Origin: an uncultured delta proteobacterium
GTDB lineage: Bacteria; Desulfobacterota; Syntrophia; Syntrophales; UBA8958
DNA length: 36,906 bases
Assembly (NCBI GenBank): GCA_903885795.1
Contig: CAISJV010000083.1
Span: 1 to 36,906 of the forward strand
Direction: 5' to 3'
Shown here: in pieces, positions 124 through 14,906 of the stretch
How positions within the stretch are numbered: the first letter of the stretch is position 1
How the letters are laid out: each line of letters opens with the position of its first letter
The notes under the pieces: generated by a model
The model's input: only the letters and a program-made list of their open reading frames with translations
Told to the model about the DNA's origin: nothing
Databases searched by the model: none
Position numbers and translations under genes: made by a program

Positions 124-1956
124 TTAATATGAGTCAACGGGTGAATATTGAGGAAGAGCCAGCAGATAGAACTTCCTGTTATCCCAAACGATGCTGGCCT
201 CCGGGAATGATCGTCGCATTGTCTCAACATGGCCCTTCCCTTCCGTGACGGCAAACGAATTTGTCCGTGCCGTAGTAGCCCCCGCGCCACCTTTCACGGA
301 CCGGACAAATTCTTCTTCCGTGGGAAAACGCCGCTCCCGTTCCTGCGGGTCAATCCGATCGGCCCCGAATTTTAGCTCTCCCAGATCTTCCACAATGGAC
401 GTGCTCCGCCCTGTATAGAAATCAATCCCGTACATGTTGCTGCGATACTGATAAACTACGGCGTCCGCCGGGACGTTGACCCTGATCGCCCGTACCACAT
501 CCAGTGCTGATTTGCCCGGCGTCAGGTAATGGGACAGGGGAAAAAGGAGGCTGACAAGATAAATGGCAAAAAGGATATAAACAGAAGCAAACCAGCATGT
601 ATTTGCCCTTTTGCGCAATATTTCCGGGATAAAGAGAATCGCCACCGCCTCAATCAAAGGTATGCCAAGCCATAGCCAACTCCCGCCGGGAGGGCCGATC
701 TCCTGGTATTCCCTGACAAACAGGGGCACAAACATCAACCCTCCCAGGGCCAGCGACTGCACGACGGCAGGGGCCAGGGTCCAGAGAGCCGTTTTATCAC
801 CTTCTTCGCAGGCGACATAGCCGGGGGGACAGATGGCAAATCTATCCCCCCCTTGATCTTCATAGCTCGCAAATACCCGCCCAATGAGTACGGCAAGGGG
901 TAACATGACCGGGGCAATGTAGGAGGCCAATTTTGAGGAAGAAAGGGAGAAGAAGAGAAAGATGAAACAGATCCAGACGGCAAAAAGGCGGATTTCCTCT
1001 CTGTTGAATACTTTAATATTCCTCCGGTGCAAGCCCATAAGCGCCTGGCTAAGGTAGGCCCACCACGGGGTAATCCCGAATAGCACCACGGGCAGATAGT
1101 ACCAGAAGGGCTCGACGCGCTCATGGATCTTTGTCGTATAGCGGAGAAAATGTTCATGGATGAAAAAGAACCAGAAGAAATCGGGATTGGCCCTTTGTAC
1201 CATAAAGAGCCAGGTACCGACGGGAAAAGCAAATAATAAGATCCCCACGGGAGTGAAGATTCTCAGAATGTCTCGCAAGCGCCGTGACCAGAGGAGCCAC
1301 AGGACGATTACCGCCGGGGGAAGGACAACGCCGATCACCCCTTTCGTCAGAAAGGCAAGAGCGGAGAATCCGTAGAATCCATAGAGCCATTTTTTACCAG
1401 CCATACCGGGAGATTGGAAGAACCGGAAGCCACACCAGATGGCCAGACAAAGAAACAACGTCAGGGGCATATCGAGGATATTAATTCTGCCCAGGGCAAA
1501 AAGCAGGAGGCTCACGGACAGGACGGCGGCGCTGTAAATGCCAGTCTTCCGGTCATAAAAATAGAGCCCCATATTATAGACGAGAAGAATACAACCCCAA
1601 GCGCTAAGACCGGCAAAGAGGCGGGCGGCAAAGGCATTCTCCCCAAATGTCTTGAAGAACAAGGCCGTGGCCCAGTAGGCTAAGGGGGGTTTCTCAAGAT
1701 AGGCCACTCCCTTGAGGTGGGGAGTGATGTAATCCCCCGCTTGATTCATGTATTGGGGAATCAAGGCATAACGAGCCTCATCCGGCTCCATCAGGGGCAT
1801 AACGGGTATAACCAACACATACAACACCAGGGGAACCAGGAACAGCACAAAAAAAGGGCTCAGCAGCAACGCCATCCATTTCCCAAGCAGGACGGCCGTT
1901 GGGGTGGGAGTGCTGTGATCTTGAGCATTAGGAGCTTCGTCAATACTGTTCATCAT
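124..1956 (-). CDS. GT39 (ArnT/PMT-like) membrane glycosyltransferase
   Basis: A 610-aa polytopic inner-membrane protein of the dolichyl/undecaprenyl-phosphate sugar transferase type (GT-C fold). Such enzymes move a sugar from a polyprenyl-phosphate carrier to lipid A, a glycan or another acceptor on the periplasmic face. After the first membrane segment (about residues 30-53) comes the family hallmark EPDEARYA (57-64), whose acidic residues bind the metal/donor phosphate, then YLEKPPLAYW (about 86-95). About a dozen hydrophobic segments follow, and the C-terminal ~120 residues are soluble. It begins 3 bases after the stop of the GT9 gene, with AGGAGG inside that gene's end, so the two are probably translated together. 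Tandem ATGs at 1956 and 1953 make the exact start uncertain. The acceptor cannot be told from sequence; linkage to a GT9 gene points to LPS core or another surface glycan. Confidence 0.88.
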   Translation of the reverse strand: MMNSIDEAPNAQDHSTPTPTAVLLGKWMALLLSPFFVLFLVPLVLYVLVIPVMPLMEPDEARYALIPQYMNQAGDYITPHLKGVAYLEKPPLAYWATALFFKTFGENAFAARLFAGLSAWGCILLVYNMGLYFYDRKTGIYSAAVLSVSLLLFALGRINILDMPLTLFLCLAIWCGFRFFQSPGMAGKKWLYGFYGFSALAFLTKGVIGVVLPPAVIVLWLLWSRRLRDILRIFTPVGILLFAFPVGTWLFMVQRANPDFFWFFFIHEHFLRYTTKIHERVEPFWYYLPVVLFGITPWWAYLSQALMGLHRRNIKVFNREEIRLFAVWICFIFLFFSLSSSKLASYIAPVMLPLAVLIGRVFASYEDQGGDRFAICPPGYVACEEGDKTALWTLAPAVVQSLALGGLMFVPLFVREYQEIGPPGGSWLWLGIPLIEAVAILFIPEILRKRANTCWFASVYILFAIYLVSLLFPLSHYLTPGKSALDVVRAIRVNVPADAVVYQYRSNMYGIDFYTGRSTSIVEDLGELKFGADRIDPQERERRFPTEEEFVRSVKGGAGATTARTNSFAVTEGKGHVETMRRSFPEASIVWDNRKFYLLALPQYSPVDSY

Positions 1957-1959
1957 TAC

Positions 1960-3189
1960 TTATTTGTCCGCCTCCTGAAGACAGGCCTTTACCTTTCCGT
2001 AAACCTCCTCGACTGAGATGGACTGCATACAGAGGTTATTCCGGCAGGGGGAGAAGCGATGGTTAAAGACGTTGACGCAGGGACTACAGGCCAGTTGGGG
2101 GTGGATCGCCTGAAAACGTCCGCCGATGGCGCCGAAGAGGGCCGGGGTCTCGGGACCGTACATGACGATACTGTTAATGGCGGTTAGGGAAGCGAAATGA
2201 CCGGGACCGCTGTCGTTGGTCACGAGGATATCAGCCAGGGAATAGAGGACGAGGAGTTCCCGGAGCGTCGTCTTGCCGGCCAAAGAGGCGACCCTTGGCG
2301 AACCGATCTGACGGCTGACTTCCTCGGCCGAAACCCGCTCCGACGGCGCCCCCGTAATCACCAGCGTTACCTCGGGATGGCTCGCCAGGATCATCTTTCC
2401 CAAGGCGACAAAACGCTCGGTCGGCCACTTGCGCAGGGGGAGCATATCACTGGCGTTGGGATTCAAAAGCACAATCGGGCCGTTTTCCTGTCCCTTGAAT
2501 TCATCTTTCAACAGTTCCCGAACCCTCTTTATCTCTCGCTCCTGAGGTGTAAATACGGGTAATGTTTCGCTAAAGGCACCAATATCAAGCTTCAGTAAGG
2601 GAATATCTTCGGGATTGACCTTCAGGGCCTCCACGAGGAGATGATAGAATTTGGCAGTGTGGAGATAAGGGTTGTACTGGACACGGTGGGTCAGCAAATC
2701 ACCCCGGTAAGGGGCTTCACTCGTAAAGCGGTGAAGACCTACCCGGCGGTGCGCCCCCGTAAGAAAGGAGAGGATCGCCGAGGCCCGGGCAAAAAACTCC
2801 ATGTCTACCGTAGCGTCGATCCGCAGGCGCCAGACCTGCTCCAGCATATGCCAGACATCCCAGAGAAAAACCCCGAAGGTCTGATGGCGGATGGGAAAGA
2901 CATTCTCCGGGGGAACCAGTTCCAGGATATCAAGGATCGGGCGGTTTTCTTCAAAGACGCAGAAATAGACATTCTCCCGCCCCACCATCTTTATGGCCCG
3001 TTCCAGGGCGCTGTAGGCAAGGACCGTCGCCCCCTGCTCGATGAGCTTGAGAAAGAGTATCTTTTTAACCGGATCCGGATCTCCGGCGTCGCTATTGATG
3101 GCATCCTGTATCCTCCGCACTCCCGTCAGGATAAAGCAGGCCAGCCGTCCCATCCAGATATCAATGATCCTGATCGTTTCCGGTTTCAA
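1960..3189 (-). CDS. GT9 (heptosyltransferase-family) glycosyltransferase
   Basis: A 409-aa protein of the ADP-heptose:LPS heptosyltransferase family (GT-B fold, cytoplasmic side of the inner membrane). The C-terminal nucleotide-sugar half is clear: LLNPNASDMLPLRKWP (about 245-260), then TNDSGPGHFASL (about 325-336), the donor-binding region of GT9. A Cys-rich tail (CSPC, then FSPCRNNLC) is common in GT9 proteins from anaerobes. The first ~35 residues are a poorly conserved extension. The start is TTG at 3187-3189, supported by AGGGG seven bases upstream; the next in-frame ATG is 12 codons further in. It lies downstream of the frameshifted GNAT gene and directly upstream of the GT39 gene. The exact sugar is unknown. 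Loss of heptosyltransferase specificity is common in this family, so waaC/waaF should not be assigned. Confidence 0.85.
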   Translation of the reverse strand: MKPETIRIIDIWMGRLACFILTGVRRIQDAINSDAGDPDPVKKILFLKLIEQGATVLAYSALERAIKMVGRENVYFCVFEENRPILDILELVPPENVFPIRHQTFGVFLWDVWHMLEQVWRLRIDATVDMEFFARASAILSFLTGAHRRVGLHRFTSEAPYRGDLLTHRVQYNPYLHTAKFYHLLVEALKVNPEDIPLLKLDIGAFSETLPVFTPQEREIKRVRELLKDEFKGQENGPIVLLNPNASDMLPLRKWPTERFVALGKMILASHPEVTLVITGAPSERVSAEEVSRQIGSPRVASLAGKTTLRELLVLYSLADILVTNDSGPGHFASLTAINSIVMYGPETPALFGAIGGRFQAIHPQLACSPCVNVFNHRFSPCRNNLCMQSISVEEVYGKVKACLQEADK

Positions 3190-3224
3190 TTTCTTTCCCC
3201 TGGATGGTAAATGGATCTGGTCAT
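3186..3224 (-). CDS. Possible 12-aa leader ORF ahead of the GT9 gene
   Basis: ATG at 3224 opens a 12-codon frame (MTRSIYHPGERN) preceded by AGGAGAAAGGA. Its TGA overlaps the TTG start of the GT9 gene (ATTGA). This is the geometry of a translational-coupling leader that would feed ribosomes to a weak TTG start. It could also be coincidence, or show that the true GT9 start lies elsewhere. Confidence 0.3.
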   Translation of the reverse strand: MTRSIYHPGERN

Positions 3225-3250
3225 ATTATATGATTCCTTTCTCCTCATAA

Positions 3251-3286
3251 ATTTCTGGCAAAAGTTACACCGCACTAACCAGAAAT
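3251..3286 (-). terminator. Inter-cistronic hairpin at the GNAT stop
   Basis: ATTTCTGG (3251-3258) pairs with CCAGAAAT (3279-3286), and an inner GTTA/TAAC can also pair. The stem contains the stop codon of the frameshifted GNAT reading frame. No T-run follows on the minus strand, so it is more likely an RNA-processing or attenuating hairpin than a strong terminator. Confidence 0.35.
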
Positions 3287-3846
3287 CAGCGCTGGTGTCA
3301 AACAGGGAATAAATTTTGTACAGGTTATGATCCAGTCCTCCTTGATGAATTCCAGAAGCTGCTTCGCGAAGTCGGATACAATGACGATGCCCTCGAAATT
3401 GGGTGGGCAGAGAATTTTTTGCATGAGCAGGCCATCGCCGTCGAACCAACGTGGCATGGGTCCGCCAAAAAAGTAACCCCTGTACCGAAGGATGTCCACG
3501 GCCGCGCCGACCCAGGGCTCAGTCAAATTCAGACAGACCTGAAAGACGACGGCCTTTTTTGTAAGCCCCTCGCCCTCCAGAACGGAAAGGCGATCCTGGA
3601 AATCACTTCCGAGCTCAGGAACAACAATCCGGGCTACCCGTGCAAAATCAAAGACCGTCAAGTCGGCCCTGGTTGGCTTGGCGGCGGGTATTTCTCCCTC
3701 GGATACTACCAAGTCACGGGCATCATCGAGACGAGCGTAAATTCCCCGTAGTTTCTGTTCATAGACCGAAGGCAGGAAGATCCGGTGTGGCTTCGGTTTG
3801 TAGCAGCGGAAGGCATTCAAGGTCGCCACCCTGCCGGCAGCGCTTT
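3275..3846 (-). pseudogene. C-terminal part of the frameshifted GNAT protein
   Basis: This frame continues the acetyltransferase encoded at 3817-4341, but in the -1 register. The switch lies at the run of five A residues at 3848-3844. Joined, the two frames give a protein of about 354 residues. This part (about 190 residues, ending LISG) has no ATG or ribosome site of its own near the junction. It carries a domain after the GNAT fold that I cannot name. It resembles the last ~130 residues of the ATPase fusion at 6649-7968: here FLPSVYEQKLRGIYARL, there FTDTSLKDYLQREYSRL, each followed by a similarly spaced hydrophobic block. The break may be a real mutation, a homopolymer sequencing or assembly error, or a programmed -1 frameshift. 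The slippery site (G GAA AAA) is not a canonical one. Confidence 0.7.
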
Positions 3847-4341
3847 TTCCTGGGTGTAGGCCTCGGCAGGCATCAAGGCCACCTCGATGGCCGTCTCCAC
3901 AAAATTGAAGTTTTCGATCACCTTTTGCATGTATGGGTGATTGCATACCGCCTCACCGAATAGTTCCTCGATATGTGGATTCTGGGGGACAAACTCATTA
4001 TACAGAAAACCCAGAAGTCTCTTGTTGGCCCCCGAATTGCGATATTCTTTCCGGACCAGACCGACGCCGGTCTCATAAAGGGATTTACAGGGCGCCGAGT
4101 GATAGAGGTGGGTCACACCGATAACCTCTCCGTACGCAGTGCGGGCGCAGATGGAGTAGTACCTGCCTTCCTCGTTGGCGGCAATGATTTCCACCGGATC
4201 GTAGAACAACCTGATTGGGTAGCCTTCGCCGTAAACAGCACGGAAGAGCTGGACGATACCATCAGCATCCTCAGGTCGAAAACTACCCACAGTGAAGAGT
4301 TTTTGTTCCTGAGCTATCGGTTTATCGTCAGCGCTTTTCAT
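3817..4341 (-). CDS. GNAT-family N-acetyltransferase (N-terminal part, frameshifted)
   Basis: The 174-aa product begins MKSADDKP and contains a GNAT acetyl-CoA-dependent acyltransferase fold. It has an N-terminal FRPEDADGIVQLFRAVYG helix (about 20-37), the central strand GEVIGVTHLYHS (about 71-82), a degenerate CoA-binding loop GLVRKEYRNSGANKRLL (about 93-109), and a C-terminal ENFNFVETAIE strand. From about residue 165 the frame drifts (ending LPAGWRP) because of the frameshift at 3844-3848; the intended product continues in the frame ending at 3275. The start codon overlaps the MFS stop (ATGA) and has AAGGAGG nine bases upstream, so it is coupled to the transporter. The substrate is unknown. 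Confidence 0.72.
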   Translation of the reverse strand: MKSADDKPIAQEQKLFTVGSFRPEDADGIVQLFRAVYGEGYPIRLFYDPVEIIAANEEGRYYSICARTAYGEVIGVTHLYHSAPCKSLYETGVGLVRKEYRNSGANKRLLGFLYNEFVPQNPHIEELFGEAVCNHPYMQKVIENFNFVETAIEVALMPAEAYTQEKALPAGWRP

Positions 4342-5552
4342 AAAGCAAGTCCTCCTTGTTGCGGGTCAATTTTTAAAATAATTATGAACACAGCGGAAAG
4401 TATAACAAATCCTGATGCAACATAAAACAGGACGTCAAATCCCGCTCCGAACGCGATGATCATACCCCCGATGTAGGGCACGACAAAATATGCCACATCC
4501 ATGGTGAAGAGGGTCATGTTGGTGTTGATCCCCCTCAGCGAAGGTGGTGAGGCCGAGAAAAGCATGGCATTCAAAAGGGGCAGGATCACTCCCATACATA
4601 ATCCGTAGAGGGCTGCCAGCAGGTAGAAAGCAGCAGGGAATGCGGCAAGGGGAAGCAGAATCAGGCACGGAATCAACAGCATCAGCGCCTTTTTCAGGGT
4701 GGTAAGCTTATTAGTCCTGTCAAATAGGGCGGCTCCCAAGGCACGCACCGAAATCATCGCTGCCATGGATATGGTGAAAAAGAGGCCGACGTCGCCGGCA
4801 TGGATTTGCAGGGAAAGATCCTTCATGAAATAAAATAAAGTCGCATGAGCAAGATAGATCAAAAAGATGGCCCCAAGCAAAATGATCACGGATCGCAACC
4901 GCAGATTCTCCCCTATTTCAGAAAAAGTCGGGCGTCGCAGCAAGACGCCGTCCATGCCACGCAGAGCTTTACCAAGGCGACCCCACAAGGCAGTCAGGAG
5001 GAAAATGGCTACCACGGAAAAGACCGAAACGGCGGCATAGATATCGGCCTCATTGCGGACGTAGGGAAGCAAAGCCTCGGATAGAGGTGGGATAACGGCG
5101 TAGGGGATCATTGTCGCGATGCTGATGGCGCTGAACCCCTGGCCGCTCTTATCTCCGGGGATAAAGTTCACAACGAGAGCGATCAAAGCCGATGTGAGAA
5201 GAACAAACACCGCACCGTGGAAGATGCGCAACACAATCATCGCCGGAACTGACGTCACCAATTGGTAGGTGCAGGAAGCCACAATAAGCAGGATGAGCGA
5301 GACCATGATGACTGAAAAAGCATTTCGCACGTGCAACCAGGGAAGGACGATCAAACGTAGGATAAAGGCCGACATGGGTTCCAGTCCGACGAGAAAACCC
5401 CGCCATTCGATGGGAATCCCGATGGTTCCCAGGTAATGATAAAAGCTGTAAAAGACACTGACATTGCCGAAAGCCACGGCAATGATCAGACACAGGGCAA
5501 CGAACTCAAAAGACCATAGTTTGCGGGAGTTGGACAGGTTGTCCACGGTCAT
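4338..5552 (-). CDS. MFS-type transporter
   Basis: A 404-aa inner-membrane protein with about 12 hydrophobic helices and a basic cytoplasmic loop mid-sequence (GRLGKALRGMDGVLLRRP, about residues 191-208), the usual layout of the major facilitator superfamily. An R-rich LRLIVLPW segment follows helix 2, as in drug/metabolite exporters. No substrate-specific motif is visible. The gene begins 7 bases after the HisC stop (ATG 5552, or GTG 5555) and its TGA overlaps the next ATG by 4 bases, so it sits inside a tightly coupled operon. It probably exports, or takes up, whatever the aminotransferase/acetyltransferase pair acts on; this is inference. Confidence 0.85.
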   Translation of the reverse strand: MTVDNLSNSRKLWSFEFVALCLIIAVAFGNVSVFYSFYHYLGTIGIPIEWRGFLVGLEPMSAFILRLIVLPWLHVRNAFSVIMVSLILLIVASCTYQLVTSVPAMIVLRIFHGAVFVLLTSALIALVVNFIPGDKSGQGFSAISIATMIPYAVIPPLSEALLPYVRNEADIYAAVSVFSVVAIFLLTALWGRLGKALRGMDGVLLRRPTFSEIGENLRLRSVIILLGAIFLIYLAHATLFYFMKDLSLQIHAGDVGLFFTISMAAMISVRALGAALFDRTNKLTTLKKALMLLIPCLILLPLAAFPAAFYLLAALYGLCMGVILPLLNAMLFSASPPSLRGINTNMTLFTMDVAYFVVPYIGGMIIAFGAGFDVLFYVASGFVILSAVFIIILKIDPQQGGLAL

Positions 5553-5558
5553 CACCTT

Positions 5559-6668
5559 TCAGGCCAGGATATTTTTCAAGGCGGCTACAAAGGCCTCCAT
5601 CGCCTCCATCCGGGCCATGGTAACCCGGATGTGATTCGGATAGCGGAAGCCGGTCATGGGTCTGATCATTATTCCCTCGTGCATGAGTTTCCGATAGGCG
5701 AGGGTATCGCTCCCCGTCAGTTTCACAATCAAATAATTTCCTTCGCCGACGATGACGGGCAGACCCATGACCGCCATCTCTGCGCATAAAAAGGCCTTGC
5801 CCTCCCTTACCAGCTCCCGTGTGCGCCGGATATGGCCTGTTTCATCTCGGAGACAGGCCAGGGCGGCCTCTTGGGCTATGCCGTTGACGGAATAGACGAT
5901 ACAGGTACGGCGGATCATGTCGACGACTTTCAGATCGCCGACCAGGTAGCCGATGCGCAGCCCCGCGATTCCGTACATCTTGGAGAAGGTGCGGAAAACG
6001 ATAAGGTTTGGATAGTCGTTTATCAAGGATATCCCGTCGGGAAAATCGTCCGCCTCCACGAATTCGTAATAGGCCTCATCGATGACAACGATTTGCTTTC
6101 CTCCTACCTCTTCGAGAAAGGCTCTCAGAGTGTCTCGGGACCAGTATGTTCCCGTCGGATTGTTAGGGTTGCACAGAAATATTACTTTCGTGGCGGCATC
6201 GATGCCTTCGAGCATTGCCTCATCGTCGAATCGTTCCTCCTTCAGGGGAATCACCCGGGCTTCGATCCCGGAGAATACTGCCACCCATTCATAAACTGCG
6301 AAGGTCTTGTCTGCCGTGATGATGTTGTCGCCCTGACTACAAAAGGCCTTTATCACAAAGGCGATGACTTCATTGGCGCCATTGCCCACGAGGACCTGAT
6401 CGGGATCGATGCCATGGCAGGCGGCAATTTCCTGGCGCAGATAGTACGAGTCCCCGCTGGGGTAGACGGCGCCCCGGGGGGGAGGAAAACGTCGGATAAC
6501 CTCTTGGGCGCCGGGGGGCGGTCCAAGGGGATTTTCATTGTTGTTCAGACGGTAAAGGTGATCGCACCCGTAAAGCTTTTGCAGCTCCTGATCGGGTTTG
6601 CTGGGTATATAGGGCTCGAATTCCCGCACATAGGCGGGAACGAGGAGGTCAAGGTTCGGTTCGATCAT
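5559..6668 (-). CDS. hisC: HisC-type PLP aminotransferase
   Basis: A 369-aa fold-type I aminotransferase of the histidinol-phosphate aminotransferase subfamily, which transfers the amino group between glutamate and an imidazole- or aromatic-type 2-oxo/aldehyde substrate. Diagnostic features: LNNNENPLGPP (41-51), GNGANEVI (95-102), CNPNNPTGTY (166-175), DEAYYEF with the cofactor-contacting Asp at 197, the Schiff-base lysine K230 in FRTFSKMYGIAG, and RIGY just after. Length is normal for HisC. No other his genes are nearby; it lies between a regulatory-looking ATPase/GNAT fusion and a transporter. It may therefore be a paralog used on another substrate rather than the histidine-pathway enzyme. 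It starts 20 bases inside the preceding gene and has no strong ribosome site, indicating coupling. Confidence 0.85.
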   Translation of the reverse strand: MIEPNLDLLVPAYVREFEPYIPSKPDQELQKLYGCDHLYRLNNNENPLGPPPGAQEVIRRFPPPRGAVYPSGDSYYLRQEIAACHGIDPDQVLVGNGANEVIAFVIKAFCSQGDNIITADKTFAVYEWVAVFSGIEARVIPLKEERFDDEAMLEGIDAATKVIFLCNPNNPTGTYWSRDTLRAFLEEVGGKQIVVIDEAYYEFVEADDFPDGISLINDYPNLIVFRTFSKMYGIAGLRIGYLVGDLKVVDMIRRTCIVYSVNGIAQEAALACLRDETGHIRRTRELVREGKAFLCAEMAVMGLPVIVGEGNYLIVKLTGSDTLAYRKLMHEGIMIRPMTGFRYPNHIRVTMARMEAMEAFVAALKNILA

Positions 6669-7968
6669 ACTGAAAAATCAACAGGTCGGCTTGACCGGCA
6701 AAGGGGATGATCAAGACAGGACGGAAATGGTTGGCCAGAAGGACGGCCATCAGCGATGCGTGCCAGGAGACTCCCAGGTCGAGGTTAAAGAAGATGCTAT
6801 TGATAACTTCTTCCTCAAGAAAAAGGAGGTGTTTCTTGACGTTGGCGTCATAATCAACCCCCGGCCAGAGGGGACGCAGGATCGCCACCGATCCTTCCCG
6901 GTGCACCTCGGTTGCAAATATCGAGGCCCCGGCCTTCATCTCTCCCTGATCACGAACCTCCCTGATCTCCCGCGCAAGAAAGAGACGACTGTATTCCCGC
7001 TGCAGATAGTCTTTCAGGCTCGTATCCGTGAAGACCAGGCAACCGGGATCTTCATGGAGAAGTCGGTAAAATGCCTGTCCTGCAATGGTTTTTCCGTCAT
7101 GACGGTAATGGTTCATCAATCCCAAAAGTTCGAACTGCGATTGGACGGATGAAGGCATCCCCGTAAGGCTGACCAGACCGATGGCCTTGGATCGTACTGT
7201 CCTGGCGATGCATGCATCGAGGAGCAGGCCAGCGATCTCACCTTCCCGGTCCTGTTGAAATACATGGGGGCCAAACATCTCCACGATCCGGGTCGTCAGA
7301 AAACGAAAAAGTACTCCACCGGCTAATTCCCCTTTGGCATCGACAGCCGTCACGACCTGGCAGTTACCGGCGGCGACCATGTCTGCCACTTGACCAGGAT
7401 AATTGAAAAATATCGGCCGTATCGGATCAGGAGATCCCTGAGCTACACGGGTCACATACTGCTTCACCCCTTCCGTGTCCGGCGTTTCCACCATGAGGGC
7501 GCCCGTAACATCGATCGGCACTACATATGTCTTCGGCGCCGGAGGATAGTGCTTGTCATTTTCGATGGCCAGGCAGATGCAGTTTTGTCTTTCCGCAACG
7601 ATGTTCAGGCGATTAATCGTACGGGAGGCAATCGCCAGGCCCATTTCCGCCATATCGTCTTCGTTCTCACAGTCAACGGATGCAGCGATGTTGAGGGCCC
7701 CCATGTTGAGTGTTGATACGGAAAAGCGGAATTCTACTCGGACATAGGATAATCGGTTTATACAACGGATGTCGAGAATCCCTCCTCGACAGACGTGGCT
7801 TCCGAGGTAGGAAAATATTTCTTCCGTTGCCAGGCTGAGTTTTAGGGACTCCTCTTTGCCAAGCCCAAAGGCCTTGGCCGCTGTTTCTACACAGTGGGTA
7901 GCGATTTGCAGAAAGGACATCTGGGCCGTCAATTGAAGGGAAACTATTCGATCATGATCCTGGCTCAT
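6649..7968 (-). CDS. SpoIIAB/RsbW-like ATPase domain fused to a GNAT-like region
   Basis: A 439-aa protein. Residues about 5-130 resemble an anti-sigma-factor-type HATPase (HATPase_c_2): a helix with LATEEIFSYLGSHV where an active family member has the N-box, and a final EMGLAIASRTINRLNIVAE helix-strand like the end of RsbW/SpoIIAB. The N-box asparagine and a clear G1 glycine box are not visible, so ATP binding is doubtful. Residues about 150-320 look GNAT-like (CQVVTAVDAKGELAGGVLFRF), and the last ~130 resemble the C-terminal domain of the GNAT protein three genes downstream. ATG 7968 is chosen because TTGAGGA sits six bases upstream; longer starts reach 8052. It is first in a six-gene minus-strand operon, so it may sense state or control the downstream enzymes. 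Function unknown. Confidence 0.65.
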   Translation of the reverse strand: MSQDHDRIVSLQLTAQMSFLQIATHCVETAAKAFGLGKEESLKLSLATEEIFSYLGSHVCRGGILDIRCINRLSYVRVEFRFSVSTLNMGALNIAASVDCENEDDMAEMGLAIASRTINRLNIVAERQNCICLAIENDKHYPPAPKTYVVPIDVTGALMVETPDTEGVKQYVTRVAQGSPDPIRPIFFNYPGQVADMVAAGNCQVVTAVDAKGELAGGVLFRFLTTRIVEMFGPHVFQQDREGEIAGLLLDACIARTVRSKAIGLVSLTGMPSSVQSQFELLGLMNHYRHDGKTIAGQAFYRLLHEDPGCLVFTDTSLKDYLQREYSRLFLAREIREVRDQGEMKAGASIFATEVHREGSVAILRPLWPGVDYDANVKKHLLFLEEEVINSIFFNLDLGVSWHASLMAVLLANHFRPVLIIPFAGQADLLIFQYDRTEP

Positions 7969-8150: not shown

Positions 8151-8741
8151 CTATTTCGCTCTTTCATAATCCTCCATAGTATCCAGGTCGATAAGGATAC
8201 CGGGGTCATCGCAGGGCACGTCCAGAGATGTCGCCCTATAGCGGGAAAGAAGCGTCCGCAGTCCGCCCGGCTCTGCAAAGGCGAGAATTGAAGGAATCAG
8301 GGTCGCCGCGATAAGCGGCGGATGACCGCGCCTCTGCCCATAGCATGGATGGTAAACGTCCATCTTAGCTTCCCGATAGGCAGCGACCAGATTCTTCAGG
8401 GTAGCGGGGTTGACCAGTGGCATATCGACAGGAATAAGAAAAAAAGCCTGACAATCCTCTGTGAGGTTCCTTACCCCAACTTGAACTGAGGAAAGCATCC
8501 CCTGGTCATAATGCTCGTTGATCAGCCAGCGTACGCCTTGATTTTTCAGGAGGGGAATGATTTTCTCCGCCTGATACCCCACAACAACGAGGAGATCAAA
8601 AATGCCTGCCTCCCGTAAAAGACTGATTACCTGCTCTATCATCAATCTCCCCCTCATTGTCAACAGGGGCTTGAAAGCCCCCATGCGCGAGGAAAGACCG
8701 CCTGCAAGAATCAATGCGGCGATCTTGTCATCAGATTTCAT
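8151..8741 (-). CDS. MobA/MocA-like nucleotidyltransferase
   Basis: A 196-aa cytosolic NTP transferase (GT-A-like Rossmann fold) of the MobA/MocA family. In molybdenum-hydroxylase loci these enzymes attach CMP or GMP to molybdopterin, giving the dinucleotide cofactor. The N-terminal signature LILAGGLSSRMGAFKPLL (about residues 10-27) is the nucleotide-binding loop, IPVDMPLV (about 103-110) is the metal-binding Asp motif, and QRRGHPPLI (about 136-144) is the conserved substrate loop. Together with XdhC and the hydroxylase subunits beyond the IS remnant, a MocA-type (cytidylyl) role is the best inference. ATG 8741 (AAGGA nine bases upstream) is preferred over TTG 8744. Confidence 0.85.
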   Translation of the reverse strand: MKSDDKIAALILAGGLSSRMGAFKPLLTMRGRLMIEQVISLLREAGIFDLLVVVGYQAEKIIPLLKNQGVRWLINEHYDQGMLSSVQVGVRNLTEDCQAFFLIPVDMPLVNPATLKNLVAAYREAKMDVYHPCYGQRRGHPPLIAATLIPSILAFAEPGGLRTLLSRYRATSLDVPCDDPGILIDLDTMEDYERAK

Positions 8742-8768
8742 CAAAATATGTCCTTGTAATCTTAATAC

Positions 8769-9901
8769 CTCAACTTTCGCAGGAGCGAAAAACTTGTAAT
8801 GTAGTGTAATTATTATTGTTATAGCGTCACTATGAGTGATATATTAGTTTTGTTCCCCAACAAAAGCCAAACAACGCACGAGGTGACGCTATGAGCCAGC
8901 ATATATCAGACATCGATTACTGTGAAAACCAGATTCATCAGTTCTATCTCAATCAAAATATTGGCAGCCTGTTAAAGCGAAGCAATATCAGCAAGGAGAA
9001 AGGTATTTCTTCTGTTGCTGTGTTCCGCGTTATGTTCACACTGGTTTTTGCCGGGAAGGCATCTGCAAGGCACCCGATGTCCTGGTCGAGATGGTAGCCG
9101 AAGCCAAGGCAAGTGGGATTCAAGCCAGTCACCTTTTGTTTGGCAGCTGGTTTGCCTATCCCGTAACCATGAGGAACTTGCTTGCCAAGGGGATGCAAAC
9201 CCTCTGCATGCTCAAGGTCACGGAAAAGATCTTCTATCACTACCAAGGGGATGATCTCCATTTGGCGGCCATCTACAGGAAGATCCGTAAGCGTCGCGGC
9301 CGCGCAAAGATTCTCGCTTCGGTCATGGTCGAGATCGGTAAAAACGACAAGGGCCTCCCAGTTCCGGCAAAGATCGTGTTCGTCCAGGGCATGCGCACCA
9401 AAAAATGGCTGGCCCTGCTGTCAACCGATACAGCCTTGGGCAACGAGGAGATCGTCATGACCTATAAGCGCAGATGGGACATCGAGGTGTTCTTCAAGAT
9501 GGCCAAGTCGTTTCTCAATCTTGCCAAAGAGTACCAGGGGCAGTCCTATGACGCTCTTGTCGCACATGCCATCATGGTGTGCTGCCGGTATGTTATGCTG
9601 GCCCTCGCCAAGAGGACAAACCAGGCCCCCCGAACACTTGGAACTCTGTTTCATGCCTGTTGCGAAGAACTTCAGCAGGCAACCTTTGCTGAAGCACTGT
9701 CCCTTGTTCTGACTATTTTGAAACAGACCTTGGGCAACGCCCCGGAAATGAACAGGGAGATAATCCGATCCTTAATCGATCGGTTTCTCAGGGAATTACC
9801 ACCAATTTACGGGACACGGTGGCTACTTGCTTGGCTAAATAGTGCCGTTTTTTGTTAAAGATCGCATAGTTATAAGCTATCTAGCATGTGCGAAAGTTGA
9901 G
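8769..9901 (+). mobile_element. Decayed IS4-family insertion sequence
   Basis: The element is bounded by 13-bp inverted repeats CTCAACTTTCGCA at 8769-8781 and its reverse complement at 9889-9901. It contains a single broken IS4-type transposase. Its span of 1133 bp is shorter than expected for an intact copy because the middle of the transposase is deleted. No target-site duplication is evident beside the repeats, which fits an old insertion. It separates the mocA-like gene from xdhC. Confidence 0.85.
8891..9858 (+). pseudogene. IS4-family transposase, internally deleted
   Basis: The N-terminal piece (8891 to about 9060, MSQHISDIDY to FAGK) and the C-terminal piece (about 9073-9858, PDVLVEMVAEAKASG onward) are in different frames. 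The C-terminal part keeps YKRRWDIEVFFKMAKS, the IS4 YREK-like catalytic Glu region, and LLFGSWFAYP, the second-Asp region (here apparently G-S-W rather than the usual D-S-W). Between them, where intact relatives carry the first catalytic Asp, about 150 residues are missing. The junction shows two copies of AAGGCA (about 9062-9067 and 9073-9078), pointing to deletion between short direct repeats. The product cannot be an active transposase. Confidence 0.85.
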
Positions 9902-9934
9902 TATGTCAAATGAAAACAGGCCATATTTTAACTT

Positions 9935-9991
9935 AGAGCATGTCCGAACTAACGTTCCCTGAGATTACGCTCATATTTATGGACAAGCTCT
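9935..9991. repeat. 57-bp inverted-repeat segment overlapping the xdhC 3' end
   Basis: AGAGCATGTCC (9935-9945) and GGACAAGCTCT (9981-9991) form an 11-bp inverted repeat with one mismatch. The right arm, extended as ATTTATGGACAAGCTCTT (9975-9992), recurs with 17 of 18 identities at 21136-21153. This looks like the ends of a tiny non-autonomous element or an IS scar. The right arm supplies the last codons and stop of xdhC. Confidence 0.5.
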
Positions 9992-11197
9992 TGCCCCTGC
10001 CCGCAGGGCAATCAGCTCCGCCGCAATGCTGACGGCGATCTCTGCTGGCGTTTGTGCACCGATGGCAATCCCGATAGGACAGTGGACTCGGGACAGGTCT
10101 TCCGGGGAAAACCCATCCCCACGCAGGGATTGGTAGATGGCGTCCCGCTTTCTCCGACTGCCGATCATCCCTATGTAACCCGCGCCGGTGCACATCGCCT
10201 GTGCCAATACATTCCGGTCGTGCTCATGTCCCCTGGTAACAATGACAATGCAACAATCTCCGTCAATCTCCATACCCTGGAAACATCCCTGAAAAGATTC
10301 CCGTGAAATCACGAGCTCTTCAGCGGTGGGGAAACGATCGCAGCCGGTAAATTCACGGCGGTCGTCAATTACCGCGGTTCTGAGACCGAGGAAATGGCAT
10401 AACGTAGCCAGTTCCTGGGCTACATGGCCCGCACCGGCGATAATGACCCGACCCGGCAGGGCAACTGGCTGGAACAGATAACGGACGCCGCCGCTTGCGA
10501 TCAGCACCGCCTCAGCGCGGCGGCGTTCCTGTTTCATGATGTCCAGAGTCAGGTTGGTCATGTCCAGGGAACCGGCATCAAGGTTGTCATCATCCATCAT
10601 GCCCAGGCCGGCGTGCACCAATAATCTGTCAACCGGCAGCGCCAATTCGGGAGCACCGGAGCCGGAAGTATTAGTCTGGACACAATATATGTTAAAATCA
10701 TCATTCCCGTGAAGACAGGAAAGCGACGATTCATGTTCATCATCAAGAATTTGATTGGATGCCGGAGTAATAACTACTCCCTCTGATTGTTCGGGACGGA
10801 TTGAGCGGATCAGCCAGACACTGTGTCCCTTCTCCTGAGCAGCAACAATTTTCTCGAAGATCAACAAGACCCCGGGGTCCTTTCCCTCCAGGACATCAAC
10901 GAGCACCTCCATCCGCCCCCCGCAAAGCATCCCAGCAGCGGCGACTTCTTTTGCGGTGAGAGAGAATGTAAGGCAAACGGGACGGGCAGTGCGCAGAACC
11001 TCCTGCGCCACGGCCAGGACCTGCGCCTCAAGGAGACCTCCCCCGACAGTTCCCATACTTTCACCGCTGTCTTTAACTGCCATGGAGGCGCCCGCTTCAC
11101 GGGGCCCCGATCCCGACCGGACTACCACCGTAGCCAGGACCAACCGCTGCCTTCGCGCCAGGCAGTCCAAAATATTCCGGTAAAGTTCTTTACTCAT
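9977..11197 (-). CDS. xdhC: XdhC-family molybdenum cofactor chaperone
   Basis: A 406-aa XdhC/CoxI protein that binds and matures (sulfurates) the molybdenum cofactor before insertion into a xanthine-dehydrogenase-type enzyme. The N-terminal XdhC_CoxI domain shows GSGPREAGASM, GTVGGGLLEA and GMLCGGRMEVL with the conserved Cys (about residues 24-95). A C-terminal Rossmann domain (XdhC_C) begins VIIAGAGHVAQELA (about 250) and ends CPIGIAIGAQTPAEIAVSIAAE. ATG 11197 (MSKELYRN) fits the family; the open frame extends upstream to 11584 only because it is antisense to the large-subunit gene. The last residues (ARACP) come from the 18-bp motif also found at 21136-21153, so the natural C-terminus may be slightly altered. 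It is divergent from the hydroxylase subunits it should serve. Confidence 0.9.
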   Translation of the reverse strand: MSKELYRNILDCLARRQRLVLATVVVRSGSGPREAGASMAVKDSGESMGTVGGGLLEAQVLAVAQEVLRTARPVCLTFSLTAKEVAAAGMLCGGRMEVLVDVLEGKDPGVLLIFEKIVAAQEKGHSVWLIRSIRPEQSEGVVITPASNQILDDEHESSLSCLHGNDDFNIYCVQTNTSGSGAPELALPVDRLLVHAGLGMMDDDNLDAGSLDMTNLTLDIMKQERRRAEAVLIASGGVRYLFQPVALPGRVIIAGAGHVAQELATLCHFLGLRTAVIDDRREFTGCDRFPTAEELVISRESFQGCFQGMEIDGDCCIVIVTRGHEHDRNVLAQAMCTGAGYIGMIGSRRKRDAIYQSLRGDGFSPEDLSRVHCPIGIAIGAQTPAEIAVSIAAELIALRAGARACP

Positions 11198-11293
11198 TGA
11201 AACACCGATGCCCCTGTGATATGTTTTTCTCACTTCCCACATAACACGGAGTCGTATGAAAGTCATCATCCGGATAAAGAGGATACAAACGGG
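11198..11293. promoter_or_regulatory. Divergent xdhC / hydroxylase promoter region
   Basis: If the large subunit starts at GTG 11294, the two divergent genes are 96 bp apart, enough room for back-to-back promoters. I see no convincing -35/-10 pair or operator and make no finer call. Confidence 0.35.
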
Positions 11294-13594
11294 GTGAATG
11301 CCTACATTCCCGAAATCGGCAAGCCCGTTCCCCGGGCGGACGCAGTAGCCAAAGCCACAGGCGCGGAAAAATACGCCGTCGACCACTACGGAGACAACAT
11401 CGTCTGGGCCGGGGTCCGGCGGGCGGGCGTCGCCCACGGCCGGATTCGCCATCTCGATACATCCGTAGCGTCGCTTCTCCCCGGTGTGATCGCCGTGCTG
11501 ACGGGCCGGGACGTCCCGGGAACGAACCGCCAGGGGATCATCCACAAGGATCAACCTGTTCTTGCCGACGAGAAGGTCCGCCACTGCGGTGATGCCGTTG
11601 CCCTAGTGGTGGCGGAAGACCGGGCGACACTGCAAAAGGCCCTGTCCCTCATCCGTGTCGAAATCGACCCCCTTCCGGGAGTTTTTACGGTTGACGACGC
11701 CTTGCGACCTGACGCCCCGCTGGTCCATGAGGATCATCCACAGGGCAACGTCCTCCTGAAAGCAACGATCCACTCCGGTGATGGTCAGGTTGCCCTGGAG
11801 GGGTGTGACATCATACTGGAAGAGACCTTCCATGTCCCCGTTCAATCCCACGCCTTTATTGAGACGGAAAATGGTGTCGCCTGGCAGGAAAGGGGCGGCA
11901 AGGTTGCCCTTGTCGTCTCCACTCAGGCGCCCTTTCGCGATAAATGGGAGATCAGTCACGCCCTGGGTCTGCCCCTGGACCGGCTGCACATCATCGGCCC
12001 CTACCTTGGCGGGGCCTTCGGGGGCAAGGACGGCGCCACGGTCCAGTGTTTACTCGTTCTGGCCGCCCTCCACACCGGGGGACGACGTGTCAAAATGTGG
12101 TGGAACCGGGAGGAGAGCTTTATAGCCGGGTATAAACGTCATGCCGTCCGCATGCACTATCATCTCGGCGCCCGGACCGACGGGACGCTCCAGGCGCTCC
12201 ACTGCCGCCTCTACTATGACACCGGGGCTTACGCCCACCTGGGCGGAGAAGTCATGGCCCTGGGCATGGAGCACGCCGGCGGGCCCTACCGCATCCCCCA
12301 CACACTGATCGAAGGCTGGTGTGTTTATACTAACAATCCTATCGCCGGGGCCATGCGCGGTTTCGGCGTTGCCCAGGTCAGCTTCGCATTCGAGGGGATG
12401 ATGGACCTCCTTGCTGTCAAACTGGGCATGGACCCCCTGGAGCTGCGCCTGAAAAACGCCCTCCTGCGGGGCGACCGAAACGCATCAGGAGTCACCCTTA
12501 CCCAGTCCACGGGCATTGCAGACTGCCTGACCGCCGTTCAACATCATTCCCTCTGGCATGAACGTAAGGCCTGGAAAAAAGAGGCCCCTCCCTTCCACAA
12601 GCGGGGAGTGGGCATAGCCGCTGTGTTTAACGCCATGGGCTATGGCCGGGGGCTTCCCGATTCAGCGCTTGCCAAAGTGGAACTGACACCGGAGGGGCGC
12701 ATCCGCGTTTACAGCGGCGTCTCCGACATGGGCCAGGGAAACACCACGGCCTTCGTTCAGATCGCCGGCCAGATCCTCTGCCAGGATCATACCGCCATCG
12801 AGCTAATCCAACCGGACACCGAGCGGACCCTCCCGTCGGGATCGGCGTCAGCCGGCCGGACCACCTACACCTACGGCAACGCCCTGATTAAGGCCTGCGA
12901 AGAACTGCGCCGGCGCCTAACCGGACGTGCGGCCCTTATGCTTCTGTCCGATACATTAGACGATCTGGAACTCCTGCCGGGACGGGTCAAGAACCTGGCA
13001 ACGGGGCGGGAGATTCCCTTGACAGCCCTGGCAGCGATGATGTCGCCAGAGGACCGGGTCTGCATCAGCCAGTTTCTCATGCCTGTGGTCCGAGACAAGC
13101 TGGATACGGGCAAGGAGTTTGTCATCGGCTTTCCTCATCTCCTTTTTTCTTACGCTGCCCATCTGGTCTGCATCGAGGTAGATGAGCTTACCGGGGTCAT
13201 TGATATCAAGGCATACCTGGCGGCGACGGAGGCGGGACGGGTCCTCAACCCACAGGCCTTTGAGCAGCAGGTTCAGGGCGCCATTGCCCAGGGAATTGGT
13301 TACGCCCTGAGCGAGGAGGTCCTCCTGCAGGAAGGTCGCATCGTGAACCCCGATTTCGCCACTTACATCATCCCCGGCGCCCTGGACATCCCGGAGATAG
13401 TCTCCCTGGCCGTGGAAACTTACGAACCCTCCGGCCCCTACGGCATGAAAGGCGTCGGAGAGGTAGGGATGAACGGACCGCTGCCTTCCATTGCCGGCGC
13501 CCTGGCCGACGCCAGCGGAATCCACATGACCCGATCGCCCCTGACAGCGGAGCGGGTCCTCGCGGCGCTGCAAAATCAACAGGAGCATCCATGA
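11294..13594 (+). CDS. Molybdenum hydroxylase large (Mo-binding) subunit
   Basis: A 766-aa xanthine dehydrogenase-family molybdopterin-binding subunit. The N-terminal Ald_Xan_dh_C hammerhead domain starts around GAEKYAVDHYG and includes GDAVALVVAEDR. The Mo-binding domain shows GPYLGGAFGGKDG, GAMRGFGVAQVSFAFE (the XDH-type RGFGxxQ loop) and GSASAGRTTYTYGNAL. The C-terminal GMKGVGEVGMNG holds the catalytic Glu that deprotonates the Mo-bound hydroxyl. There is no CoxL active-loop motif, so a CO dehydrogenase is unlikely; purine, aldehyde and N-heterocycle hydroxylases are all possible. GTG 11294 is preferred because the alternative ATG 11216 would leave only 18 bp to the divergent xdhC start and add residues unlike the family. 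The stop overlaps the next start (ATGA). Confidence 0.9.
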   Translation: MNAYIPEIGKPVPRADAVAKATGAEKYAVDHYGDNIVWAGVRRAGVAHGRIRHLDTSVASLLPGVIAVLTGRDVPGTNRQGIIHKDQPVLADEKVRHCGDAVALVVAEDRATLQKALSLIRVEIDPLPGVFTVDDALRPDAPLVHEDHPQGNVLLKATIHSGDGQVALEGCDIILEETFHVPVQSHAFIETENGVAWQERGGKVALVVSTQAPFRDKWEISHALGLPLDRLHIIGPYLGGAFGGKDGATVQCLLVLAALHTGGRRVKMWWNREESFIAGYKRHAVRMHYHLGARTDGTLQALHCRLYYDTGAYAHLGGEVMALGMEHAGGPYRIPHTLIEGWCVYTNNPIAGAMRGFGVAQVSFAFEGMMDLLAVKLGMDPLELRLKNALLRGDRNASGVTLTQSTGIADCLTAVQHHSLWHERKAWKKEAPPFHKRGVGIAAVFNAMGYGRGLPDSALAKVELTPEGRIRVYSGVSDMGQGNTTAFVQIAGQILCQDHTAIELIQPDTERTLPSGSASAGRTTYTYGNALIKACEELRRRLTGRAALMLLSDTLDDLELLPGRVKNLATGREIPLTALAAMMSPEDRVCISQFLMPVVRDKLDTGKEFVIGFPHLLFSYAAHLVCIEVDELTGVIDIKAYLAATEAGRVLNPQAFEQQVQGAIAQGIGYALSEEVLLQEGRIVNPDFATYIIPGALDIPEIVSLAVETYEPSGPYGMKGVGEVGMNGPLPSIAGALADASGIHMTRSPLTAERVLAALQNQQEHP

Positions 13595-14061
13595 CCATTC
13601 ATTTCATTTTGAACGGTGAAAAGACAACACTGAATGTTACGCCGGACCGCCGGGCAGTAGACGTCCTGCGGGAAGATTGTGGACGGACGGGAACGAAGGA
13701 AGGATGCGGGGCCGGAGAATGCGGGGCCTGTACGATCCTTGTTGACGGCGAGAGCCGCTTGTCATGCCTCATGTTGGCGGCGCAACTGGAAGGCCGGAAG
13801 ATCACCACCATCGAGGGGATGGCAGTAAGGGATAGCCTGCACCCCCTTCAGAATGCCTTCATCCGACACGGTGCTGTCCAGTGCGGGTTCTGCACACCTG
13901 GGATGATCCTAGCGGCTACCTCCCTTATGAACCACAATCCCCATCCCACCCGGGCGGACATCCGTGCGGGGTTGAGCGGTAACCTCTGCCGGTGCACGGG
14001 GTATCAGAAGATTGTGGACGCCGTCGAGGCAGCGGTCCGTCTGGAGGAAGAAAAATCATGA
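13591..14061 (+). CDS. Molybdenum hydroxylase 2Fe-2S subunit
   Basis: A 156-aa small subunit carrying two [2Fe-2S] clusters that pass electrons from the Mo site to FAD. The plant-ferredoxin-type cluster uses C39, C44, C47 and C59 (GCGAGECGACTILVDG region). The second, helical-domain cluster uses C98, C101, C133 and C135 (QCGFCTPGM and NLCRCTGYQ). All eight cysteines and the normal length are present, so the protein should be functional. It has AGGAG before ATG 13591, and its start and stop overlap both neighbours, as expected for an obligate three-subunit enzyme. Confidence 0.96.
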   Translation: MTIHFILNGEKTTLNVTPDRRAVDVLREDCGRTGTKEGCGAGECGACTILVDGESRLSCLMLAAQLEGRKITTIEGMAVRDSLHPLQNAFIRHGAVQCGFCTPGMILAATSLMNHNPHPTRADIRAGLSGNLCRCTGYQKIVDAVEAAVRLEEEKS

Positions 14062-14906
14062 CGCAAGTCTATCTCCCCCGCACGTTGACGGAGCTCTGGA
14101 CGTATCTGGACGGGGAACCCGAGGCGCTTATCTACACCGGCGGCACGGACCTGCTCGTAAAAATGCCCGCCGAAAATGCTAACACCGCTCCTGCCCTTAT
14201 CTGTCTGGAGCGCCTTGGGGAACTCCGGTGCATACGGGAGACCGCTGACAGCATCCTGATCGGCAGCACCACTACCCATGCGGAACTCCTCCGTCATCCT
14301 CTGATCTTAGCCCAACTGCCCGTCCTGGCCCAGGCCCTTCAGACCCTGGGGTCGCCCCTGATCCGCAACATGGGGACGATCGGCGGTAACATCTGTACCG
14401 CCTCACCCGCCGGCGACACCCTACCGCCCCTTTATATCCTAGAGGCAGAGGTGGAACTACACAGCCGCAAAGCCGTCCGCATCCTGCCGATCAGAGAGTT
14501 CATTAGCGGCCCCGGGAAAACTCAATTGCAAAAAGGTGAGATTCTGTCAGGGGTCGCAGTAAAAAAACCGGCTGATTATAACATCCATCACTTTGAAAAA
14601 GTCGGACAACGCAAGTCCATGGCCTGCGCCGTGGCAAGCATGGCCGCCCTGCTCCGGCTTTCGCCATCAGGGTTGATCGAGGCGGCGCGGCTGGCCTTGG
14701 GCAGCGTAGGACCGACCGTCGTGACCGCAACCGCTATCGATGAGTCACTGATCGGCAAAAAACTATCGTTAACAAGTCTTGCTGCAACCGCTGAAAGAAT
14801 CAGACAGCTCGTAGCGCCCATCGACGATGTGCGGGCCTCAGCGGATTACCGCCGGACAGTTTCCGGCAACCTGCTGCTCCGTCTCCTTGACGCCCGAACG
14901 CAGTGA
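14058..14906 (+). CDS. Molybdenum hydroxylase FAD subunit
   Basis: A 282-aa medium subunit with an FAD_binding_5 (PCMH-type) domain followed by the CO_deh_flav_C domain. FAD contacts are YTGGTDLL (26-33) and IRNMGTIGGNICTASPAGD (102-120). The C-terminal domain begins near residue 170 and ends LLRLLDA. ATG 14058 overlaps the preceding TGA and has GGAGG ten bases upstream. The order large-small-medium is one of the common operon orders for this enzyme class. No 4Fe-4S insertion (as in 4-hydroxybenzoyl-CoA reductase HcrB) is seen, so NAD+ or a ferredoxin is the likely electron acceptor. Confidence 0.93.
   Translation: MTQVYLPRTLTELWTYLDGEPEALIYTGGTDLLVKMPAENANTAPALICLERLGELRCIRETADSILIGSTTTHAELLRHPLILAQLPVLAQALQTLGSPLIRNMGTIGGNICTASPAGDTLPPLYILEAEVELHSRKAVRILPIREFISGPGKTQLQKGEILSGVAVKKPADYNIHHFEKVGQRKSMACAVASMAALLRLSPSGLIEAARLALGSVGPTVVTATAIDESLIGKKLSLTSLAATAERIRQLVAPIDDVRASADYRRTVSGNLLLRLLDARTQ

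Follow-up and report, generated by a model that had tools for sequence, protein, structure and literature searches.

The locus

We analysed a stretch of 36,906 nucleotides (hereafter the window; contig CAISJV010000083.1 of assembly GCA_903885795.1) from an uncultured delta proteobacterium of the order Syntrophales, phylum Desulfobacterota. It encodes on one strand a protein of 439 amino acids that we call FUS, a HisC-like aminotransferase, a transporter of the major facilitator superfamily (MFS) and a double-GNAT acyltransferase (GNAT2), and it carries the genes of a molybdenum (Mo) hydroxylase on the far side of FUS. Homologs of FUS and of the aminotransferase lie next to each other almost without exception across the phylum, frequently accompanied by the other genes, and we tentatively read the whole as a regulated cluster for making and exporting a small metabolite. 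The features of the window are as follows.

6649..7968, minus strand: FUS (439 amino acids), with a degenerate RsbW-like (HATPase_c_2) part at ~1-150 and a double-GNAT-like part at ~150-439, as judged by profile and alignment
5559..6668, minus strand: HisC-clade aminotransferase of a cluster-specific clade (TIGR01141, tree)
4338..5555, minus strand: MFS transporter (MFS_1), probably an exporter, to judge from the MATE proteins in its slot in L082 and L086
3275..4341, minus strand: GNAT2, encoding a double-GNAT acyltransferase; a frameshift in this assembly leaves it open over 3817-4341 and over 3275 to ~3850
8151..8744, minus strand: MocA/MobA-like nucleotidyltransferase for Mo cofactor maturation (NF045665 and TIGR03310, both below cut-off)
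9977..11100, minus strand: XdhC-type maturation factor (NF045664, over cut-off; start uncertain, listed open reading frame 9977-11584)
11216..13594, plus strand: large, Mo-binding subunit of a hydroxylase of the xanthine dehydrogenase family, which probably starts downstream of 11216
13591..14061, plus strand: [2Fe-2S] subunit of the Mo hydroxylase
13992..14906, plus strand: FAD subunit of the Mo hydroxylase (start probably near 14055)
1960-3189, minus strand: GT9 (Glyco_transf_9), by family label
124-1956, minus strand: GT39 (PMT_2), by family label

The sequence-only reading of this DNA had described the genes between 124 and 7968 as an operon, and their order, their common strand (all minus) and their overlaps were confirmed: FUS and HisC overlap by 20 bp, HisC and MFS are separated by 3 bp, MFS and GNAT overlap by 4 bp, and 3 bp separate GT9 from GT39. 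Its family labels also held, with matches to TIGR01141 for hisC, MFS_1, Glyco_transf_9 and PMT_2. The GNAT gene of 174 amino acids (3817-4341) turned out to be only the first half of the frameshifted double-GNAT gene, the second half of which occupies, in another frame, the 627-bp gap between GNAT and GT9. In relatives, including L019 (L numbers denote fetched loci and G numbers genomes, G000 being the window's own), one open GNAT2 gene of ~340-350 amino acids spans both halves, and relative to these the window gene has a frame-changing length difference; intact homologs include paralogs in the same genome, at G000:C82 and G000:C32. The limits of the unit had to be redrawn: the core of FUS, HisC, MFS and GNAT stands, the pair of glycosyltransferases falls outside it, and on the other side the unit reaches to the MocA, XdhC and Mo hydroxylase genes at 8151-14906, of which the hydroxylase had been missed.

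Distribution and conserved partners

The genomes searched with the FUS family profile belong to one phylum, Desulfobacterota. Among 100 relatives, 16 carried FUS (G000 included), and 55 of the 395 genomes of the phylum gave some match, 45 of which were counted as full-length, the remainder being either partial FUS or short hits on other proteins that carry a related domain. A scan of genome contigs yielded one confirmed FUS locus, in a Syntrophus metagenome-assembled genome, and none of 64 pattern matches in viral contigs was confirmed. We fetched 57 loci (15 from the window's order and 42 from the phylum, with 26 family labels and the window excluded); the partial FUS matches in G444, G111, G144 and G210 lie outside this set. 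Partners were counted on any strand, and many loci are cut by contig ends.

HisC lies directly after FUS on the same strand in 56 of the 57 loci, with gaps of -16 to +218 in tblastn coordinates, and the sole exception is L093. Near FUS, the Mo subunit is encoded in 37/57 loci (counting L068, where the match is 26-42% and the genes stand in a different order, and a contig-end fragment in L097), the FeS subunit in 35/57, the FAD subunit in 33/57, MFS in 36/57 and GNAT2 in 33/57; where 7 kb or more of sequence follows FUS (40 loci), Mo was found in 30, MFS in 29 and GNAT2 in 28. The recurrence of HisC, MFS and GNAT genes beside that of FUS across Desulfobacterota is what the sequence-only reading had said would support a system. 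Other partners are less frequent: STAS (15/57), RsbW (13/57), SpoIIE (12/57), an NMT1-like protein (9/57), MocA (9/57), XdhC (8/57), and MATE, SGNH-like and adenine-deaminase-like proteins (3/57 each). The SpoIIE count derives from 13 tblastn hits, from which L081 was removed; a Pfam check of eight hits identified seven as SpoIIE and L081 as an HD-domain protein. The genes are frequently arranged as FUS-HisC-MoL-FeS-FAD-MFS-GNAT2, in some loci with STAS-RsbW-NMT1 after them. In L075, L082, L088 and L097, STAS-RsbW-NMT1-SpoIIE stand immediately upstream of FUS, and in the window's order the Mo genes are often upstream of FUS and divergent from it. A search of the open-access literature by terms returned no description of this gene set; each component family is known, and within that literature the combination and FUS appear undescribed.

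FUS, a diverged RsbW-GNAT fusion

The window FUS matched no Pfam family, and 10 of the 15 FUS members scanned matched HATPase_c_2 (PF13581) at E values up to 1, the best being 1.8e-5. In profile comparisons, the N-terminal 150 residues aligned with the RsbW-like kinases of the clusters (hhalign 97.9%, E 5e-13), and the C-terminal 290 columns with GNAT2 (86.7%, E 4e-6, collinear over 273 columns), two unrelated control pairings giving 0.1% and 0.3%. An unnamed family of RsbW-GNAT fusions of ~500 amino acids (eight sequences: L119-L122, L124, L127, L128 and L130) is homologous to full-length FUS over 432 columns (E 2e-22) and to GNAT2 over 340 columns (E 3e-38). Because of these two alignments we conclude, from sequence comparison, that FUS is a diverged RsbW-GNAT fusion. 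A profile search of the PDB sequences with FUS gave no match up to E 5.

The N-box Asn, which serves Mg-ATP in RsbW/SpoIIAB kinases, is kept in 12 of 13 cluster RsbW rows and in 7 of the 8 RsbW-GNAT fusions, for which no pairing with the cluster HisC was seen, whereas it occurs in none of the 57 FUS rows (the window and 56 of the 57 loci, the frameshifted FUS of L018 and L020 having been dropped). Aligned position 54 carries Y in 43 rows, H in 8, S in 2, F in 2, A in 1 and V in 1, and an Asn immediately precedes it in five related rows. The kinase half thus looks degenerate and is probably inactive, which agrees with the earlier description of FUS as a degenerate SpoIIAB-like ATPase fused to a GNAT; the GNAT half is possibly degenerate too. 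By eye, proteins at L125, L129 and L131, in genomes that bear FUS, have an RsbW-like domain (AEEIF) followed by a PqqD-like stretch, and one of the three (L131) has the N-box Asn.

The enzymes and the transporter

The window HisC scores 297.6 bits against TIGR01141 (cut-off 276.55). In a tree built by a quick method, from which open reading frames outside 340-420 amino acids and CL_L099 were dropped and in which some long branches were flagged, 50 cluster rows fall on one side of a branch of 2.23 (SH-like approximate likelihood ratio test, SH-aLRT, 100) and 20 other rows, two of them lower-scoring, on the other. Compared with TIGR01141 HisC (without the lower-scoring HK_L184 and HK_L185), the cluster enzymes keep the pyridoxal phosphate (PLP) Lys, both C-terminal Arg and other core residues, but they form a separate clade with the signatures GEGNF and IRRTcvVYSVN. 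They pass the hisC annotation cut-off although 13 of the 14 FUS genomes tested have another HisC over it outside the cluster. The cluster enzyme is therefore not a sole genomic HisC within the clade of histidine enzymes, G000 being an exception for the sole-HisC part.

The Mo hydroxylase shares with the xanthine dehydrogenase (XDH) family its three-subunit architecture, nearby XdhC and MocA genes and a KGxGE-type Glu. It differs at the substrate positions that correspond in the alignment to Glu232 and Arg310 of Rhodobacter capsulatus XDH: the first is Asp in 36 of 36 Mo subunits and the second Leu in 35 and Met in one, so that neither purine-XDH residue is present. Its best solved matches are 4-hydroxybenzoyl-CoA reductase (1rm6) and nicotinate dehydrogenase (3hrd). 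The beta subunit of 4-hydroxybenzoyl-CoA reductase carries an extra 4Fe-4S insert; the FAD subunit of the cluster is shorter than that protein (1rm6_B) and matches it over residues 6-115 only. Mo genes that lie apart from FUS keep cluster partners: STAS, MFS and XdhC in L200, and in L199 GNAT2 and a benzoate-CoA-ligase-family gene adjoin them. Among the 20 genomes in which Mo orthologs were sought, G008, G418, G345, G138 and G104 have one at 56% identity or more, and matches in G475, G323 and G363 reach only 34-38%; the FUS-less G044, G033, G009, G023, G001, G007, G010 and G386 gave no match at E 1e-60. G104 (79% complete) has a Mo ortholog and a permease fusion (see below) with no FUS detected, which weakens a strict linkage of FUS and Mo, unless FUS was missed there.

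Genes of the benzoate-CoA-ligase family score over the TIGR02262 cut-off at L199:14068-15585, beside the Mo and GNAT2 genes, and at L078:5256-6797, inside the cluster. Because of these genes, GNAT2 might take its acyl group from an aryl-CoA. A MATE gene occupies the slot of MFS in L082 and L086 and lies nearby in L075, and for this reason export is favoured over import. By-eye inspection placed a gene for a membrane-anchored SGNH/GDSL-like hydrolase between MFS and GNAT2 in L065, L066 and L092; the one of L066 had no NCBIfam match at E 1e-20. The GNAT2 paralog at G000:C32:2733-3728 (L195) lies, again by eye, among CoA-transferase-, enoyl-CoA-hydratase- and methylmalonyl-CoA-mutase-like genes.

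The partner-switching module

The sensor genes encode proteins of 650 amino acids, which where scanned are dCache-HAMP-SpoIIE phosphatases, small proteins of the STAS and HATPase_c_2 families, and an NMT1/THI5-like protein of 330 amino acids. Known partner-switching modules (RsbU/SpoIIE, RsbW/SpoIIAB and the STAS protein RsbV/SpoIIAA) have the same proteins, which are encoded within the cluster or next to it in 12-15 of the 57 loci, with phosphatase, kinase and STAS encoded together in relatives. The likeness extends to the STAS motif YI[ST]SAG (kept in 15/15 rows), the N-box of RsbW and the Cache-HAMP-SpoIIE arrangement; the difference is that the module is here linked with metabolic genes and with FUS, from which the N-box Asn has been lost. 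In G000 only STAS and RsbW homologs were seen, at C82, ~5 kb from an intact GNAT2 paralog (SpoIIE was not searched there). In G210, at a contig end, a SpoIIE-type open reading frame runs in frame into the start of FUS, possibly a fusion or an artefact.

A proposed regulated pathway for an N-acylated metabolite

The simplest reading of an aminotransferase, a hydroxylase and an acyltransferase encoded together is that the cell makes and exports a small molecule that is N-acylated and oxidised. We therefore favour, tentatively and at a little less than an even chance, the view that this Desulfobacterota cluster serves to make a small metabolite, N-acylated and oxidised at a ring or an aldehyde, and to export it, under the control of partner switching through FUS. 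From the gene adjacency and the homologies we infer the following order: 1) the HisC-clade enzyme would produce an amine by PLP-dependent transamination; 2) the Mo hydroxylase would oxidise the compound, a deaminase perhaps replacing it in a few genomes; 3) GNAT2 would N-acylate it from an acyl-CoA; 4) MFS or MATE would export the product; 5) FUS, as a descendant of RsbW-GNAT fusions, would act as an adaptor whose pseudo-RsbW half docks a STAS protein, a docking role being suggested by the loss of the kinase hallmark; 6) the phosphorylation of STAS would be set by the RsbW kinase and the Cache-SpoIIE phosphatase, with the NMT1-like periplasmic protein; and 7) the GNAT-like half of FUS would gate HisC or GNAT2. 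The sequences themselves establish the adjacency of the genes, their homologies, the missing N-box Asn of FUS, the intact motifs of STAS and RsbW and the domains of SpoIIE; the order of the reactions, the direction of transport, docking and gating by FUS and the nature of the product go beyond them. The earlier proposal of a small-molecule or surface-glycan modification pathway with a built-in regulator survives in its first and last parts, given the MATE genes in the transporter slot and the STAS, RsbW and SpoIIE genes near FUS, and is not supported in its glycan part. If our reading is true, this would be an undescribed metabolic system with wide conservation, in a phylum at the centre of the anaerobic carbon and sulfur cycles, and partner switching would be wired to metabolic enzymes by a degenerate RsbW-GNAT protein. 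FUS and HisC with the Mo hydroxylase, the transporter and GNAT2 form a compact set of genes that can be tested in the search for a new metabolite.

A number of observations weigh against this interpretation. First, the sensor genes were found in only about a quarter of the loci (many contigs being short), and some are on the opposite strand (L077, L090 and L102). Second, a Mo ortholog was not found in every FUS genome: the Mo matches of the FUS genomes G323 and G475 reach just 34%, and the FUS genomes G473, G134, G013 and G003 (82% complete) gave no Mo match at E 1e-60. Third, G000 has no second HisC over the TIGR01141 cut-off and yet has HisD, which possibly reflects a missing contig or a double role of the enzyme. 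Fourth, FUS has many nearly invariant charged residues (D196, R302, E306, D307, R333, D372, D397 and D428), and for this reason enzymatic activity of its C-terminal half is possible. The strict acetyl-CoA motif [RQ]xxGx[GA] gives no ground for regarding the GNAT half as dead, since the motif, present in 4/57 FUS rows (aligned region), is missing from most GNAT2 rows as well (present anywhere in 11/32); L032 and L033 were left out of the GNAT2 alignment. An AlphaFold2 model of FUS from two rows had a predicted local distance difference test (pLDDT) score of 37 and was not used.

Alternative explanations

The leading alternative, which we consider unlikely, is the salvage or catabolism of purines or other N-heterocycles, in which the Mo hydroxylase or an adenine deaminase would convert a purine imported by MFS and FUS would read the purine or nitrogen state. 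It draws on NCS2 proteins, similar to xanthine permeases, that in 11 of the 395 genomes end in a pseudo-RsbW domain like that of FUS (LACEEIF, no Asn; one of the 11 is a fragment, three scored PbuX-like below cut-off and the others were recognised by eye). FUS is present in 8 of these 11 genomes, against 48/395 with full or partial FUS overall (Fisher p 3e-6, uncorrected for shared ancestry). Deaminase genes also occur in L073, L098 and L100, the genomes of which lack a Mo ortholog; that of L100 scores over the TIGR01430 cut-off, and its best PDB match, 3ou8, is labelled adenosine deaminase and is, we believe, an adenine deaminase. But the permease fusion was never seen adjoining FUS, 3 of the 11 fusion genomes (G363, G386 and G104) are without FUS, the MATE genes in the MFS slot favour export, and the residues at the two substrate positions are unlike those of purine-oxidising XDH. 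Neither HisC nor GNAT2 is known to us to take part in the breakdown of purines. Moreover, the purine motif of dCache_1PU, Y-x7-R-x10-W ... F-x-D, with its spacing derived from the McpH residue numbers (PMC11245519), was not found in the Cache sensors. A looser pattern, spaced Y-x8-R-x9-W, occurs in 3 of 15 rows (L065, L069 and L081); not all of the 15 are Cache-SpoIIE (L078 and L081 are not, and L090 has no Cache). In the 10 long rows inspected, C, V, T or A stands two positions ahead of the presumed Asp, where the motif has F. A purine link of the cluster is thus only suggestive, the hints for it being indirect. The window's own genome encodes one such NCS2 permease with the pseudo-RsbW domain at its C-terminus (G000:C52, L104:4225-5955, minus strand).

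Less likely still is that FUS is an active acyltransferase, perhaps one that acylates HisC, and not a pseudo-enzyme. The strict pairing with HisC speaks for it, as does the conservation of 37 columns at 93% identity or more over the 57 rows, of which 27 lie past residue 150; the shortage of the strict motif proves little, given that GNAT2 itself mostly lacks it. Against it, the relaxed motif [YFHL][RQ]xxG occurs in 0/57 FUS rows and in 13/32 GNAT2 rows, and none of 15 FUS members had a Pfam GNAT match up to E 1, whereas Acetyltransf_1 was matched by 2 of 6 GNAT2 members.

One could also imagine a self-contained system of chemical signalling, in which the HisC-clade synthase, the hydroxylase and GNAT2 would build an exported signal, the NMT1-like protein and Cache-SpoIIE would read it, and the partner switch would act through FUS on the biosynthetic enzymes and not on a sigma factor; we consider this improbable. 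No sigma-factor gene was noticed at the cluster loci, where no search for one was made.

It is very improbable that the HisC-like gene is no more than the ordinary hisC of histidine biosynthesis, placed in this operon by chance. In favour are its score over the TIGR01141 cut-off and the presence in G000 of HisD with no other HisC over that cut-off; the other HisC of 13/14 genomes tested, the separate clade and the near-constant adjacency to FUS oppose it. A surface-glycan modification operon with GT9 and GT39, two genes that lie near each other and point the same way in the window as in L019, is hardly credible, the pair recurring in 1/57 loci (L019, of the same genus; the contig of L020 ends before that place) against 56/57 for the FUS-HisC adjacency, for which reason we rejected both genes as cluster partners and place them outside the conserved unit.

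Neighbouring genes

Within the window, an IS4-type transposase fragment (9091-9858) separates MocA from XdhC. In the close relatives L019 and L020, ABC-transporter genes, read by eye, adjoin MocA.

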